A program made the translations under genes and the position numbers. The notes beneath the pieces are model-generated. The model searched no databases. It saw only the letters and a program-made list of their open reading frames with translations, and was not told the origin of the DNA. Shown here piece by piece: positions 39,412 to 45,963 of a DNA stretch of 64,000 nt (position 1 is its first letter; each line of letters starts with the position of its first letter). The stretch is from Cadophora sp. MPI-SDFR-AT-0126. Taxonomy: Eukaryota; Ascomycota; Leotiomycetes; Helotiales; Ploettnerulaceae. The stretch spans positions 310,001-374,000 of the forward strand of contig JAGMVK010000004.1 of NCBI GenBank assembly GCA_020747065.1. The letters are read 5' to 3'.

Positions 39412-40151
39412 GTGGGATTTGTGCTTGGACCTGGAGGGAGTACATATTGTTTGTGCATGTATGCAATAGTTTAGTCTTAGTTGCGACCCAAAATGCGAAT
39501 ACCCATCCTTGTACAATAGACAGTCCAACGTATCTATCATGCGCTACTAAGTGGAGAGGTGAAATGTCACATAAGGTTGCCGCGGATAGGTAAAGGAGGT
39601 AACTATGTAATGTTTGACTAGATGATTCATGCAGCCGCTAAGATATTTGGCAGAACATAGCGAGAGCTGCCTGCTAATGAGCAGTCTGTAAGAACTCTCT
39701 GACCATAAGATTCAGATTTCACCCACCAGAAAATAAGTATGAGAACGTTTCTAATCAGCAAATTTGATAATTGTGTAAAGTGATTTGTTCACCTCATGAG
39801 TAACAGCAACCGGGGTTGGTTGCTGGGGAGTCTCGCTTATTTTAGCACCACTGTTTGTTTATCTCTACAACTACAACCGAAGACAATTCTTATCAAAGAC
39901 CGTGCAATTGAAAATTTCTAATGTAATACCGGGTATCTTTTCTCTAATCCACTCTCAAGTATCCCTTGTAAAAGCAACGCCGATCCAGAATCGCCAAAGG
40001 AAAAAGTGTGCGCAAGAAACTATTTTACAGAAAAGTGAAGTTTTCCCCCAACCGACCGAGCAACTCTTAACGTCTGCGAACTTCTCCGCTGGCGCGTCTG
40101 CGATCCAGTCGCTTTACCACGGCTCCTAAGACGGCTTTTAGGACGCCCATA
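39412..40151. other. Intergenic, left flank of mobile element
   Basis: 3' flank of VTA1 and the DNA on the left of the recombinase element. No gene seen. Confidence 0.5.
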
Positions 40152-40174
40152 GCCAGCGAGCGGTTTTGTCGGGA
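40152..40174. repeat. Left arm of a 23-bp inverted repeat
   Basis: Pairs with 40678-40700 in inverted orientation. The inner 17 bases match exactly (GAGCGGTTTTGTCGGGA against TCCCGACAAAACCGCTC) and the outer six match in four of six. The arms enclose the left 41-bp repeat and the first copies of both palindromic motifs. Confidence 0.85.
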
Positions 40175-40240: not shown

Positions 40241-40281
40241 GCCTCCACGGCAGTGGCCCCCGGAGGGCCAGCGGAGCGTCA
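40241..40281 (+). repeat. Left copy of the 41-bp direct repeat
   Basis: Begins GCCTCCACGG and ends GCGGAGCGTCA. Identical over 41 bases to 44622-44662. It contains an internal inverted repeat, TGGCCC-ccgga-GGGCCA, so it could form a hairpin or serve as a recombination site. Confidence 0.95.
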
Positions 40282-40402
40282 CGCACTATCATTCGCGCTT
40301 TATCCTTACCAGTAATTTGGATGACGCTCCATTGGTCACCATTTGTAAATATGCTCCGCTTATACGAGCGATGTGTTGGAAATCCTAGTTATTTGTGAGA
40401 AT

Positions 40403-40415
40403 CGACTGTGTCGAT
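40403..40415 (+). promoter_or_regulatory. Palindrome P2 copy 1 (about 40401-40415)
   Basis: ATCGAC-TGT-GTCGAT with perfect 6-base arms, upstream of the recombinase gene. The full context is AATCGACTGTGTCGATTTG. Confidence 0.85.
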
Positions 40416-40494
40416 TTGAGTCATACATAACCCAACCGGGGGGGCTTGGCGGCAGTATGTAAATCATGCAATGGTGGTGGTCCTTGACCGGGGC

Positions 40495-40515
40495 GGGGGG
40501 GGGGGGGGGGGGGGG
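40495..40515 (+). repeat. 21-base G run
   Basis: An uninterrupted run of G within the element's 5' region, preceded by GGGGC. Run length from sequencing is unreliable. It can stack as G-quadruplexes. Confidence 0.85.
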
Positions 40516-40578
40516 AACAGCAAAATAAACACACTGCCCTTACGACCAACAGAACTTCTAAGATCTGAGCATTATTAA

Positions 40579-40590
40579 AAAAGTACTTTT
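40579..40590 (+). promoter_or_regulatory. Palindrome P1 copy 1
   Basis: AAAAGTACTTTT, a perfect 12-base palindrome, upstream of the recombinase gene. Confidence 0.9.
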
Positions 40591-40644
40591 GAAAAGATGA
40601 AGGCTGGCTGGGAGAGAGAAAGGAGAAGCGGATGGAGGACAGGA

Positions 40645-40668
40645 GGAGGAGGAGGAGGAGGAGGAAGG
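40645..40668 (+). repeat. GGA trinucleotide repeat
   Basis: About seven GGA units in the element's 5' region, in a purine-rich tract. Confidence 0.8.
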
Positions 40669-40677
40669 AGTTAAAGG

Positions 40678-40700
40678 TCCCGACAAAACCGCTCGGTAGC
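40678..40700. repeat. Right arm of the 23-bp inverted repeat
   Basis: Inverted partner of 40152-40174; lies inside the element, about 480 bp before the recombinase start codon. Confidence 0.85.
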
Positions 40701-41175
40701 TATGAGAAGAAGAATCTGTGTGGAGCTTGGACGATGCAATGGTACGGGAACCCCCATCTTGGTCGATCTATATGATTTTCACACACACTGCGTGTCCTCG
40801 ATATTGGATGCATGTTTTTTGCTTATTGTCCGTGAAGTGAATGGTGATACTTGCTCGAGGTCTTTCTTCATCGCTGCGACTCGCTTAAGCGAAGTCGTTC
40901 CTTCCCGATTTGGAAGAAGAGACGAACAAACTCCTTCCCTATATTTTCACACAATGACGCCAGAGCAATTTAGGCACCGCTTCCCATTTCTTCAACCTCT
41001 TCCCCTCTTCCTCTCCTTCTCTTAACTTCATCAACTTCCTCTACTTTTCAATTCCTCCACAAGGTTCATACAGAGGCCGGGGTTCGTACAGGGGCTGGGC
41101 ATTCTTACGAAGCTCGAAGATAATTGTCCTCAACTTGTTTCCGTACTTTCCACATCCAAAACAAGTCGAGGCACG

Positions 41176-44088
41176 ATGGACGACGACGACATCAACTCTT
41201 CCGATATCGAAGTTGAGCTACCTGTCGATCCATTTGCGTCCGCAGGCACCAGATCCATTCAGGAAATGCTTGAGGTCCGTCCGCCCATATCTTCGTACTC
41301 GTTCCAACTGGGCTAATGGGAAAAACAGTTCTCTGTAGTTGACAGACTTGAGTCTAAGAAGCGATCCAAGCAACTGCGATTCTCCCATGGCAGCAAAAAG
41401 ACCCAGTATATCAATCACCTGTGGTACGTAGAATCGACACCGTCGATTAACCTGGAACCGCTCGCTGGCTACGGGAGTGTCCGATTCAGCCTGGTTGCAA
41501 AAGTACTTTTTGCCAGGCAGCGACATGCACAAGCTACCTGTGGAACTCGTATCTATAGAACATTTTCGCTGACTTCTTCAAGGTACAATAGGTTCCAGGG
41601 CTTCCGTTCGGGAGTTCTTCGAGTTGACATCGACACCAGCCCAAAGGGCGAGCAATTGGAGCGATTCCTCACATCCATCGTCGCACGCGTCGTTCCCAGG
41701 GGTGCACACGCAGTTCCATCGTATAAATGGTTGCAACATGTAAGTTTGTCTAGTTGATCTTTCAGTCCCCAATTTGAACTATAGTAGTGATTGGCTAACT
41801 CTATCATTCTGCCAGGGTCTTGGACATCTCGTCAATGCAATCGTGTTCTACCACAAGGACTTCACTCTGAGCAAGCATGAGAGATCTCGTATTGAGACCA
41901 CCATTCAGGAACTGTTCCACGAGGGCAAGATAACCAGGGATCCTTCTATCGAACGGAATCACATCGGGGTCTACTTGGTCCGTAAACTCTCGACTGGAAT
42001 CCTCAGAGATGCTCTTGCGAATGGCACGCTCAATTGGGATGTTACACTGGCAAAGGCCCTGTCCATTGTGCTGACTGCTGGGCTTGCATCTCGCACTGGA
42101 GACATCACCGTTGCTCCAATGGACGTGCAGGAGCTTCCATACCTCTGTTACAAGGACATCACACTGAAGTTGGTTGGTGGAGATGGTCTTACCAGTCTAG
42201 TCGCAGAAGTTTTGATTCGCAATGAGAAGGGTGACAAGTAAGTTGCTCATTTTCCAAAGAGTACTTTTCACATGAAGCTCATCGGCACTGTCGATTCGTA
42301 CTGCGCAATTGCTGAGCTCATACTGATGATTGCGCAGGGGAAATGGCCGGAAGAATCGAAAGGTCAAGCTCGAAACCTTGAAAAGCCCTTCGAACAATGT
42401 CATCTGCCCTATCAAACTACTGCTGGTGGTGGCTTTGAGGCACGGAAATGTCCAGGAAACAAATGTTGATGAGTTTCTGCGCGTGCTTTCGACCCGGCGT
42501 GACAAGACTGTGCAGTGGGTTCATCCAAAGCGCCCTGTACTCTGTGCTTTTGGCAACGTTGGCTCTTCTGTTCAGGCGGATAAGCCCGCTGGCAATCACC
42601 AACTCTCAAACAACATGGCTCAAGCAGCTCCTGTTGCAGGATTTCTTGCGAAGAGAGTTCGATCTCACGATCTGCGCCGTGGTGCGGCTCGAGATGCCGC
42701 AAATTTGAACAGCAAGATCAAGGGATTCGCCACCGAGGCTGTTGCTGCGACACTTGGACATAGCGATCCCAGCATTACCAAGGCATATGTAGGAGACATC
42801 AGAGACTCAGTCTACACCATGAGAGTTGAGGAAGACTTCAAGGACCCGTTTGGTGTTGAGACAACCGATAAACACTTTGTGAAGCGGCGAAAGCTTTCAA
42901 AAGCAGCCATTACAGACCTCTGTGAAGAGGACGGCGTCGATGCGAAGGATGCCAAGGCTAGGAAGAGAGTAGGTCGAAATGCTTTGAACAAGACAGTGCA
43001 GGACTGGTCAGAAGCAGCTCGTGAGGAGGACGTTCCATCAGGTATCTTGCATCTACTTCCATGAGACATACTTGACTACTGACTCCTGAAAAGTACTTTT
43101 GGAACAGTCTTCAAGTGAGGTTAACGCCAATATGAGCAAGCTTGCCACCATCAATCGTGTCCCAGTCAAACAGCAAGGACCAGTTCAACAAGACTCAACA
43201 ACGTTGTTCATTGACCCACGCTTGCTCACCGGAGACATCGGTTTTGAGGATTTGGTCGAAGATGACACAGAGGAGCCGACCGCTGCTGTGGAAGAGGCAT
43301 ACTTCGATGAAGTCGTCTCTCAAACCACCCAGACTAGTTCGCCAGAGCTGCTTATCGACGGTGTCGATTTTGTGCGCTACTTCTCCAAGATCAATATGTC
43401 CAACAATCAAGTCCTGGCACAATTTGGCCATCATGAGGCCAAGGCTGCTTTGATCGCCTCGAACTACGCCGGCTACAGCAAAGACCCAGTCGCCCTATGG
43501 ATCTTCTCATGTGAGAATGCGATGTTTGGCTGTCAGTACAAAAACTCTCTCTACGCCCAAGTGCTCGAGCACCAGCGTACCTGTAAGTTCACTTCAGCAG
43601 AAGCTTACAACGAGTCCATCAAAGTCAAGGCCTTTCCATGCGATCGTGAAGGCTGTGGAAAGAGCTTTGATAGCAAGGGTCGCCTTACAAATCACATTAA
43701 TGAGGTCCACGACTGGAAGAAGCGTGGATGCGACAAGGATGGCTGCGATCCAAAAGTACTTTTCGAGACGAGGAAAGAGTTCCTGAAGCATGGACAGACT
43801 GCTCACTCACCATATACACCATCTCGCTGCTTGTTCCCAGGCTGCCCCTCCACAATCGAGTTCAAGTCTTCTAAGACCTATCGCAGTCACTTGAGTACCC
43901 ATGGAATCACCGATCGAAAGGAGAAAGATAAGTATATGCCGGGAAAGAAAGCTGCTTTTGTCCCTCAGCTGTGTCGAGTACCCAAGTGTACGAGCACCAT
44001 GACTTTTGCACAGCCAAATCGTCTGCGAACCCATCTTGCAGACAAGCATGGCTTCACAGAGGATGAGATAGAAGACTATCTTTTCTAG
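41176..44088 (+). CDS. Tyrosine recombinase with C-terminal C2H2 zinc fingers
   Basis: Six exons, 41176-41274, 41329-41423, 41583-41739, 41816-42237, 42338-43041 and 43094-44088, give 823 aa. The catalytic set is complete: Arg in LASRTGD (about 210), HxxR in SHDLRRGAARD (368-371), His in ATLGHSDPSITKAYVGD (399) and the nucleophile Tyr in the same motif (408). After a charged linker come four C-x4-C type fingers (CDREGCGKSF...HINEVH, CDKDGCDPKV...HGQTAH, CLFPGCPSTI...HLSTH, CRVPKCTSTM...HLADKH), with one weaker finger before them. Introns 2 and 4 each contain both palindromic motifs. The last intron (43042-43093) ends inside a palindrome copy, at AAAAG|TACTTTT, and that choice of acceptor is what joins the recombinase and zinc-finger frames. 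If the splice is wrong, they are two genes. Expected role: cutting and joining the element's ends in the nucleus. Confidence 0.85.
41433..41447 (-). promoter_or_regulatory. Palindrome P2 copy 2
   Basis: ATCGAC-ACC-GTCGAT, perfect arms, inside intron 2 of the recombinase gene. On the minus strand the spacer is GGT, as in copies 4 to 6. Confidence 0.88.
41499..41510 (+). promoter_or_regulatory. Palindrome P1 copy 2
   Basis: AAAAGTACTTTT inside intron 2; the symmetry extends to GCAAAAGTACTTTTTGC. Confidence 0.9.
42257..42268 (+). promoter_or_regulatory. Palindrome P1 copy 3, one mismatch
   Basis: AAGAGTACTTTT inside intron 4 of the recombinase gene. Confidence 0.8.
42281..42295 (-). promoter_or_regulatory. 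Palindrome P2 copy 3, one mismatch
   Basis: ATCGGC-ACT-GTCGAT inside intron 4, 13 bases after P1 copy 3. Confidence 0.82.
43089..43100 (+). promoter_or_regulatory. Palindrome P1 copy 4, contains a splice acceptor
   Basis: AAAAGTACTTTT at the end of intron 5. The acceptor AG (43092-43093) that keeps the frame lies at the centre of the palindrome. Confidence 0.88.
43354..43368 (+). promoter_or_regulatory. Palindrome P2 copy 4, within coding sequence
   Basis: ATCGAC-GGT-GTCGAT, perfect arms, in codons for IDGVD of the linker between recombinase and fingers. Confidence 0.88.
43752..43763 (+). promoter_or_regulatory. Palindrome P1 copy 5, within coding sequence
   Basis: AAAAGTACTTTT in codons for KVLF inside the second zinc finger. 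Confidence 0.9.
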
Positions 44089-44113
44089 TCTCTTGATTGT
44101 ACAGAATGAGCAA

Positions 44114-44128
44114 ATCGATGGTGCCGAT
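44114..44128 (+). promoter_or_regulatory. Palindrome P2 copy 5, two mismatches
   Basis: ATCGAT-GGT-GCCGAT, just after the stop codon; the changes are symmetric-like (C to T in one arm, T to C in the other). Confidence 0.72.
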
Positions 44129-44378
44129 TTGCTCTGCCATGTCGTAGAAGTCCCGCGGCTGTTAAGGTATCATCAGCACTTATCATTTGGAGCATGGCAA
44201 AAGGACTGGGAAGATGTGCATGTTTAGAAACTTTGCATGAATGTTGCTATGAGAGGAGAGGAAATTTTGGGACTGTAGTGCGGTAATATCTGATTTAGCA
44301 GTGCCATCTGCTTGCTACTGGAGGATGCTGAGGGACATATGTATCTAGCTGGAGGGTCCTTCGTTATGCACGGGACGA

Positions 44379-44393
44379 ATCGACGGTGTCGAT
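44379..44393 (+). promoter_or_regulatory. Palindrome P2 copy 6
   Basis: ATCGAC-GGT-GTCGAT, perfect arms, in the 3' non-coding part of the element. Confidence 0.88.
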
Positions 44394-44585: not shown

Positions 44586-44597
44586 AAAAGTACTTTT
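44586..44597 (+). promoter_or_regulatory. Palindrome P1 copy 6
   Basis: AAAAGTACTTTT, preceded by GC as in copy 2, and 25 bases before the right 41-bp repeat. Confidence 0.9.
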
Positions 44598-44621: not shown

Positions 44622-44662
44622 GCCTCCACGGCAGTGGCCCCCGGAGGGCCAGCGGAGCGTCA
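44622..44662 (+). repeat. Right copy of the 41-bp direct repeat
   Basis: Identical to 40241-40281. It ends about 140 bp from the stop codon of the neighbouring vWA gene, so the element may sit in or near that gene's 3' UTR. Confidence 0.95.
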
Positions 44663-44802: not shown

Positions 44803-45963
44803 CTATCTTCTTCTACGATCAAGTCTGCGGTTCACAGCACCGAGCACGCATTTCAGAATGGACATGCCAGTCAGACTTACGCCACCTTCAGTTGAATTCC
44901 AGGTCATCGTATCGACGATGTCACGGACACCACCCTCAACTAACTCGCTCAACCCATCATCCAGCTCCTCCAATGCCTCTTTGGCACCCTCCTCGTTGCC
45001 AACCTGGAAGAACTGCACACCAACCTGGAAAGGTGGCGCATCAAGCTTATCCAGCTTCTTCGCCGCTGACAACAATACGGACTCCACATCATCCGACGGA
45101 ACGCCATCCGTCAAAACAATCAAGTTCAGTGGCTTGAGCTCCCGTCCAGCAGCCATCTCGCTCTCAAGCTTCGCAAGATACGGCTTGAGGATATTGTGGA
45201 CACGGATTCCAGTGGGCGTTCCACCCTGCGGTCTCACCCGCTCGAAGATCTCGTGCACGGTAGCGGCGCGCTTGATACCTCTGTAGCCGCCTGGAGCGAT
45301 ACCCTCCGACGGCGCACCGGGGTTCGAGGACTTGTGGTTCATGAAGTAGACGTCTATGCCGTCTTCGTCGTGCTTGGTGACTATGGGGGCGATGGTTGAG
45401 ATTGCTTGGCTGACTTCGCGCCAGGAGCGGCCCGCCATGGAGCCGGAGTCGTCGATGAGCAGAGTGGTGTCGAAGGTACTGAGGAAAGAGTATGGGTCTT
45501 CGCCGCTGCTGGTTGTGGGGGCGGGGGTAGATGCTTGTGGTGGAATTGGGGCTGCAAGTTCTGGGACTTGGGAGTCGATAGTTGGCCCTGATTGAACTGT
45601 TGGGGATGGGGTGTACGCTGGCGGCGGTTCGTTTGAGGGAACTGTGAAGGCGTTCATGCCGGGGCGATCTGGACGTCTTGTTGCTGGCGAGGGGTTGGTG
45701 AGCGGACTTGGACTTCTCCGTCTTGCGGCATCGTCTCTATCTGAGAGAGGGTTCAAGTCGGCTGGACCTCTGAATGTGGGGGTTGTAGGGGTGTTGAGAT
45801 CTGAGTTGGCACTGTGAGTCGAGTTTGTGGATCGTTGGGAGACGTTGCTTGATCTGCGGCCGAGTTTGCGGATGGAGCCAAAGAGGGAGCGAGATGGAGC
45901 TGGCTCTGGCTGGAGACCCCATGCTGATCCTGTAGGCATGACGATAGTTGAGCGATGTGACAT
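44803..45963 (-). CDS. von Willebrand factor A domain protein
   Basis: A single minus-strand exon of 386 aa from the ATG at 45963 (MSHRSTIVMPTGSAWG); an ATG eight codons later is also possible. The first 150 residues are disordered and rich in Ser and Pro. The vWA domain follows, with the metal-ion-dependent adhesion motif DDSGSMAG in TFDTTLLIDDSGSMAGRSW, then GIDVYFMNHKS, PQGGTPTGIRVHNIL, LNLIVLTDGVPSDD and QVGVQFFQVGN. It ends SILKCVLGAVNRRLDRRRR, a tail common in this fungal group. vWA proteins without membrane segments usually mediate intracellular protein binding; no specific partner is evident. The end of the gene lies close to the recombinase element's right border. Confidence 0.87.
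   Translation of the reverse strand: MSHRSTIVMPTGSAWGLQPEPAPSRSLFGSIRKLGRRSSNVSQRSTNSTHSANSDLNTPTTPTFRGPADLNPLSDRDDAARRRSPSPLTNPSPATRRPDRPGMNAFTVPSNEPPPAYTPSPTVQSGPTIDSQVPELAAPIPPQASTPAPTTSSGEDPYSFLSTFDTTLLIDDSGSMAGRSWREVSQAISTIAPIVTKHDEDGIDVYFMNHKSSNPGAPSEGIAPGGYRGIKRAATVHEIFERVRPQGGTPTGIRVHNILKPYLAKLESEMAAGRELKPLNLIVLTDGVPSDDVESVLLSAAKKLDKLDAPPFQVGVQFFQVGNEEGAKEALEELDDGLSELVEGGVRDIVDTMTWNSTEGGVSLTGMSILKCVLGAVNRRLDRRRR

Follow-up and report, generated by a model that had tools for sequence, protein, structure and literature searches.

Why should one small recombinase element carry two families of short palindromes, each in six copies? The question is raised by 64,000 nucleotides of the fungus Cadophora sp. 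MPI-SDFR-AT-0126 (assembly GCA_020747065.1, contig JAGMVK010000004.1, positions 310,001 to 374,000, forward strand), here called the window, to which positions refer unless a contig is named; contigs are numbered C1-C38 in a genome of 54 Mb, and the window is C33:310001-374000. Between two flanking repeats about 4.4 kb apart lies an element with one recognisable gene, for a recombinase with zinc fingers, together with a palindrome of 12 bp (motif A) and a second of the form ATCGAC-N3-GTCGAT (motif B). The original prediction held that motif B was a family of six oriented copies, distinct from motif A, within an element of the Crypton type. We find that A and B are tags that behave independently of each other and are shared by three or more unrelated types of selfish-looking gene, which carry them internally as well as on either side.

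Motif B in the window element

All six copies of motif B are located where they had been predicted, with 0, 0, 1, 0, 2 and 0 mismatches in order of position (Table 1). The spacers, each read on one strand, are TGT, GGT (minus strand), AGT (minus strand), GGT, GGT and GGT, so that GGT is found in four of the six and NGT in all of them, and the claim that the sites are oriented holds. The same is true of their placement, with two copies in predicted introns, one in the (L)IDGVD codons and three outside the coding region. At two or fewer mismatches the window yielded ten matches to motif B, six of which are the sites of the element, against 2.43 +/- 1.44 in 100 shuffles, none of which reached ten. 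Of 156 types of exact palindrome with 6-base arms and a gap of 0-8 in the window, just three recur, namely A (five perfect copies), B (four, with two of its AATCGA-N5 form) and one within the 41-bp flanking repeat (two). Across the genome, the perfect form of motif B occurs at 12 places, compared with three for the reversed control; four of the 12 fall within the 4.4-kb window element, and three of the remaining eight are in clusters on C8, C36 and C23. The predicted family is real, oriented by its NGT spacer, distinct from the first palindrome family and above background.

Clusters of both motifs across the genome

A refined motif B, AATCGRC-NGT-GYCGATT (AATCGRCNGTGYCGATT, the 17-bp form), was derived from 14 sites at three loci chosen at two or fewer mismatches, and a refined motif A, TYSAAAAGTACTTTTSRA, from 28 sites at six loci chosen at no more than one. 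The wider motif A has palindromic flanks at positions that took no part in this selection, with T at -2 in 22 of 28 sites and A at +15 in 17 of 28. At one or no mismatch, AATCGRCNGTGYCGATT is found at 18 distinct places in the genome, 16 of them in five clusters, and the reversed-pattern control gave 0 and 1; allowing up to two mismatches gives 84 matches forward and 75 in reverse (control 23 and 12), with no further B cluster among the matches listed. The strict 15-bp form of B (ATCGRCNNNGYCGAT) occurs at 35 places, against four in its control, and perfect motif A at 32, of which 22 lie in six clusters, with three in the control. The other ten A sites, viewed in stretches of 3-4 kb, are solitary; four of these are in DNA of 15-27% GC, one of which (C21) has an extra A site with one change. 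No neighbouring B site at one or fewer mismatches was present in the stretches examined around the single B sites at C37:2071562, C18:486295, C35:723739, C2:351451, C10:42947 and C23:488429, and outside the clusters the perfect-A and strict-B places are more than 5 kb from one another.

The sites of the first six loci served as the training set for profiles of both motifs, and C20, C23 and C12 were not part of it; the profile control set included loci picked for single sites, and only its drop in score to about 7 is informative. Ten viral contigs contain one B match each, and no relatives of the recombinase were found in viral contigs. Separately, the 17-mer AGTCGACAGGGTCGATT occurs exactly at at least seven places (C1:907023, C1:4180783, C6:679148, C12:89422, C12:320083, C12:1429289 and C17:204531) and is probably a separate dispersed repeat. 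In titles and abstract openings, a body of literature that mostly leaves out subscription papers and so does not establish absence from print, neither motif was found described on mobile elements; the motif A string occurred only in four papers, all unrelated by title, and the B strings searched for occurred in none.

Table 1. Features of the window element and of the other loci with motif clusters (window positions unless a contig is given)
Feature	Position	Strand	Remarks
Recombinase/zinc-finger gene	41176..44088	+	six predicted exons; spliced reading frame did not close at exon 1
C-terminal recombinase part	42338-43041		HDLRRG, GH, Y; invariant in four paralogs
C2H2 zinc fingers	43108-44088		exon 6
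Motif B site 1	40401..40415	+	ATCGAC-TGT-GTCGAT; 0 mismatches; 5' non-coding
Motif B site 2	41433..41447	-	0 mismatches; GGT spacer on - strand; predicted intron 2
Motif B site 3	42281..42295	-	1 mismatch; AGT spacer on - strand; predicted intron 4
Motif B site 4	43354..43368	+	0 mismatches; GGT spacer; exon 6, (L)IDGVD codons
Motif B site 5	44114..44128	+	2 mismatches; GGT spacer; directly 3' of stop codon
Motif B site 6	44379..44393	+	0 mismatches; GGT spacer; 3' non-coding
Motif A site 1	40579..40590	.	AAAAGTACTTTT; 5' non-coding
Motif A site 2	41499..41510	.	predicted intron 2
Motif A site 3	42257..42268	.	one change; predicted intron 4, 12 bp from B site 3
Motif A site 4	43089..43100	.	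predicted intron 5
Motif A site 5	43752..43763	.	exon 6, KVLF codons
Motif A site 6	44586..44597	.	3' non-coding
41-bp direct repeat, left copy	40241..40281	+	also dispersed elsewhere
41-bp direct repeat, right copy	44622..44662	+	
Displaced homologue of right-hand neighbour's 3' end	40094..40150	-	14/19 aa identical; tblastx E 7e-6
3' end codons of right-hand neighbour gene	44809..44865	-	
A cluster, window element			6 sites
A cluster, C33b	C33:1481999-1485603		6 sites and one decayed
A cluster, C4	C4:849928-853294		5 sites
A cluster, C2	C2:1873296-1877265		3 perfect, 3 decayed
A cluster, C36	C36:1219906-1223783		3 sites and one decayed
A cluster, C8	C8:289639-291953		5 sites
B cluster, window element			6 sites
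B cluster, C36	C36:1220090-1223684		5 sites and one by profile
B cluster, C8	C8:289855-291826		3 sites
B cluster, C20	C20:172840-174816		5 at <=1 mismatch, 7 by profile
B cluster, C23	C23:1272892-1274391		2 exact R/Y forms and one at 1 mismatch
Fragment, C12	C12:2389044-2389486		two A sites (one change each), one B

Genes that carry the clusters

Motif A is present on all four recombinase elements (window, C33b, C4 and C2). The C33b, C4 and C2 recombinases are 32-37% identical to that of the window and have C-terminal C2H2-type fingers, these finger parts being 26-28% identical to the window's. The H-x-x-R, GH and Y residues are invariant across the four paralogs and, with a first arginine (SRTGD) placed by eye in the preceding exon, the window protein has the R-H-R-Y set of a tyrosine recombinase; its match to PF00589 is weak (E 7.7e-5, 23 bits vs a cut-off of 27.1). 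PF11917 (DUF3435) gave no match to the window protein, either in the segments scanned or in the genome scan, and matched the C4 paralog at 30.0 bits (cut-off 25.8). The C36 locus encodes a DUF3435 protein (PF11917, E 3.9e-14) and, because the C4 paralog matches the same family, this protein is probably a distant relative. When the 42 DUF3435 matches are grouped into 21 loci, C36 and C4 are in tag clusters; perfect-A and strict-B clusters are absent from the remaining 19, weaker clusters being outside detection.

Motif B also marks genes of other types. At C20 (L041), a predicted intron (172733-175230) of a V-ATPase subunit A gene, the identity of which has Pfam support, encodes a protein of 433 aa containing a GIY-YIG-like stretch and two C2H2 fingers. 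At C23 (L049), a stop-broken relative of this protein (41% over 143 aa) sits between two parts of a carbamoyl-phosphate-synthase-like large-subunit gene, named by eye. The GIY-YIG assignment was likewise made by eye (AIY ... LYIGSGT), with no Pfam nuclease-domain match and no meaningful PHROG match for these proteins, and no motif A score above 8 was obtained at either locus. Both tags are found at C8, on an orphan gene for 370 aa (C8:289892-291001) with no Pfam family at E<=1. Over 50 aa the orphan protein weakly resembles thymidylate synthases (E 5e-4), and C38:1035308 has a weak, broken relative that lacks tags at two or fewer mismatches. Structural models were too poor for use, both for the GIY-YIG-like protein and for the orphan (mean predicted local distance difference test scores of 36.8 and 34.3).

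Altogether, three recombinase elements have A alone, the two GIY-YIG-like genes have B alone, and three loci have both. Inside the C2, C4 and C33b elements no B score exceeded 10.0 (the best, 10.0, in C2), which is not above background; a B score of 13.7 belongs to the host gene adjoining C33b, outside the element. Conservation in homologous elements, on which the original prediction had staked its motif, is therefore divided: B reappears on the distant DUF3435 recombinase and on genes of other types, and it is not conserved in the three closest paralogs. The idea that B serves a Crypton's own recombination or zinc-finger machinery is not supported, and recombinase-specific sites were rejected for B, as it is absent from those three paralogs, has clusters on genes not recognisable as recombinases, and 19 of the 21 DUF3435 loci have no perfect-A or strict-B cluster. 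Taken as comparisons of DNA sequence, these results show that the motifs are not background, that they are clustered and mutually independent, and that they lie on different kinds of gene, mostly at different positions in homologous genes.

Arrangement of the sites

The tag clusters span approximately 2-5 kb and consist of single sites mostly 0.1-1.4 kb apart, some of them in exons. Of 58 sites at eight loci, profile-only sites included, 16 are below, 28 within and 14 above the open-frame span, and sites lie both within it and on both sides of it at all eight loci, at C23 only by virtue of one weak site. The A sites of the window element, with gaps of 920, 758, 832, 663 and 834 bp, are more evenly spaced than uniform placement would give (P 2.6e-4), as are those of C33b (P 7e-4), and B spacing gave P 0.037 in the window element and P 0.019 at C36 (0.004 with the profile site), all of these being among twelve uncorrected P values. 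Of 14 B sites, four are no more than 15 bp from an A site (P 0.011; 0.046 at 30 bp and 0.076 at 130 bp).

The positions themselves are mostly not shared between recombinase paralogs. The interpolated mean offset from the nearest window A site is about 250 bp for C2, 207 for C4 and 106 for C33b, where approximately 200 would be expected at random given the roughly 800-bp spacing of A sites. It thus seems that the motif was kept while the majority of sites changed place, which suggests selection for having sites. Spread of the sites by segmental duplication was considered and mostly does not apply, the exceptions being a flank common to B sites 42281 and 44379, 36 bp in C4 and C8, and 21 bp in C4 and C33b. 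In the second of these, an A site with its flanks is alike over 32 of 36 bp between the C4 recombinase element (C4:849916-849951) and the C8 orphan locus (C8:291282-291317), as if tags can pass between elements; in the third, C4 and C33b have one A site each with 21 exact bp in common.

Proposed shared docking sites and the rival explanations

The tags are independent of each other, palindromic, and spread over coding and non-coding sequence of three or more unrelated types of gene, and neither strand is preferred for hairpins; together these features suggest sites at which proteins dock and which are read in trans. A role in double-stranded DNA rather than in RNA is favored because the two strands would form hairpins of equal quality (of 23 on each, 9 Watson-Crick, 5 G-U and 9 mismatched). 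Our preferred reading, which we hold tentatively, is that the tags are putative double-stranded docking sites for a trans-acting factor that would keep element chromatin open in the manner of VANC, a protein of the Arabidopsis VANDAL elements. Shared DNA-binding proteins would dock on the A and B palindromes, the docked factor would act in trans across element types, and docking would keep the chromatin of the elements open and expressed, by anti-silencing or activation and not by recombination. In PMC5735166, several non-coding parts of the VANDALs contain short motifs to which VANC binds, and whole elements are demethylated by it; the motifs are nine and eight bases long in tandem repeats of non-coding regions, and VANC6 motifs are also present in the unrelated AT9TSD1. 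In that paper and in PMC10398659, short motifs enable a protein to lift silencing over the full length of an element. The fingers of the recombinases would be poor candidates for the reader, since they are so little alike while motif A is common to all four elements, although this is an argument and not a test.

A broader version, which we regard as possible and not as probable, is a genome-wide two-letter tagging code in which unrelated elements have gained one or both palindromes, so that shared trans-acting proteins would treat them as one protected class. Its members would be tyrosine recombinases, including the DUF3435 type, GIY-YIG-like intron genes and orphan hitch-hikers, with tags tiled through coding and non-coding sequence.

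Several observations weigh against docking sites of this kind. No candidate VANC-like protein was found, and the conservation of the motifs is conservation between loci of one genome. The tags are single palindromes, some in exons and codons, whereas the VANC motifs form tandem arrays (PMC5735166). The core of motif A is constant only in sites chosen at one or no mismatch, and decayed sites found by profile vary. Even spacing weakens at C33b to P 0.002 once the seventh, decayed site is added, is marginal for A at C2 (0.05), and fails at C4, C8, C20 and for A at C36 (P 0.4-0.94). Two of the seven C33b A sites are no more than 50 bp from where the window element would place them, so that some positional inheritance is possible and a few sites may be inherited, and the flank common to B sites 42281 and 44379 amounts to 38 nt, 79% complementary.

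Ordinary host transcription-factor sites, borrowed by the elements to time their expression as promoter, enhancer or downstream enhancer, would account for short palindromes resembling the sites of dimeric factors, for the presence of some sites upstream of each gene, and for the closeness of B to A, as in composite regulatory sites. However, nearly half of the sites fall inside the open-frame span, with the others flanking it on either side, the perfect-A and strict-B places left outside the clusters are more than 5 kb apart, and no cluster was seen on an ordinary host gene among the weaker matches listed, so that we consider this explanation somewhat unlikely. The tags might instead be accessory sites for the elements' own enzymes, A for the recombinase and B for the GIY-YIG-like nuclease, acting in synapsis or cis preference. 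That A is on all four recombinase elements and B on both GIY-YIG-like genes, that both types of protein have C2H2 fingers, and that the outermost sites bracket the genes would all fit, but the window element has B with no GIY-YIG-like gene, the C8 orphan has both tags with neither enzyme, the finger regions diverge despite a common motif A, and recombination at interior copies would split the element; this we judge unlikely.

A host surveillance protein that recognizes the tags and silences the elements would explain one code across unrelated elements, yet elements would be expected to lose such sites, and the window element bears no trace of such attack, its GC content (0.49) being equal to that of the rest of the window and its repeat-induced point mutation index TpA/ApT being 0.62 vs 0.66, which leaves this explanation improbable. 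RNA hairpins in introns or transcripts are less credible still: B can make a stem of 6-7 bp with a 3-nt loop, but A is limited to a 4-bp A-U stem, the substitutions in B do not favor pairing on the sense strand, and several sites are well outside reading frames. Although the CpG-rich, self-complementary halves of B can recur by chance, the shuffle, reversed-pattern and palindrome-type controls rule against chance or base composition, to which we attach almost no weight.

If docking sites shared in this way are indeed present, unrelated mobile elements of one genome would have a common sequence code read by a common factor, sequence-specific anti-silencing would extend beyond one plant transposon family, and the palindromes would provide a handle for isolating the factor. 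Mechanism aside, the tags reveal small elements of selfish appearance that escape domain searches: PF11917 finds only one recombinase element in four, and Pfam gives no nuclease-domain match for the GIY-YIG-like genes.

Recombinase elements at gene 3' ends

Each of the four recombinase elements has a displaced or duplicated gene tail on its far flank, weak in C2. It is therefore likely that the elements insert at the 3' ends of genes and bring a substitute tail with them. In addition to the window element (Table 1), C33b adjoins a glutaryl-CoA-dehydrogenase-like 3' end with a diverged copy beyond the element (C33:1486125-1486259), C4 has a 21-bp exact direct repeat (849601-849621 and 853350-853370) over the last codons of a SEC61-like gene, and C2 has a weak copy of a DENR-like tail (1877524-1877574; E 0.064, with chance hits at 0.33). 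Host genes were named by eye, except V-ATPase A. The placement of the four elements at gene ends resembles phage-type gene-end integration.

The GC-rich 41-bp direct repeat that flanks the window element is part of a dispersed family with 11 further matches, of which the pairs on C22 and C37 are inverted and 57 and 168 bp apart. It was rejected as a clean attachment site, as the relatives L006 and L007 match the flank of the left copy and not that of the right. A 20-27-bp stretch of the left flank (40148-40174) also recurs inverted twice in the element, at 40678-40704 and 41456-41478 (91-93%).

Comparison with known systems

The closest likeness is to the VANDAL elements and VANC: short motifs at several places along the element, related elements with different codes, and one code on an unrelated element. 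Both A and B are element-specific motifs repeated along the element. The present system differs in its non-plant genome, in its recombinase- and nuclease-like genes and in that no VANC-like protein was found.

CryptonF elements (PMC3212892) resemble the window element in being small, with a tyrosine-recombinase-like protein as the sole recognisable gene product, and no long terminal inverted repeats were seen at the window element. They differ in that the window protein has C2H2 fingers, with no Pfam match to GCR1_C in the three segments scanned; in their 4-6-bp direct repeats, where those found here are longer (41 or 21 bp) or are replaced by displaced gene tails, repeats of 4-6 bp being recognisable only with exact element ends; and in the two internal palindrome families, which the available text of PMC3212892 does not mention for Cryptons. 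Classical CryptonF membership is doubtful on two counts, the lack of a GCR1_C hit in those segments and the failure to establish any arrangement of 4-6-bp direct repeats. The original Crypton framing is half correct: motif A is on all four recombinase elements, and a place for B in a Crypton's own machinery is not supported.

The captains of Starships are DUF3435 recombinases, and the C4 element and C36 locus match PF11917 above its cut-off; unlike Starships, no large cargo was seen here, and the DUF3435 loci are for the most part without perfect-A or strict-B clusters. Bacterial integrative elements are found at gene 3' ends with a replacement gene tail, and elements of the window type are similarly situated at a gene end with the gene tail displaced to the far side, with the difference that the genes affected here are eukaryotic and protein-coding, and two of them have predicted introns close to that end.

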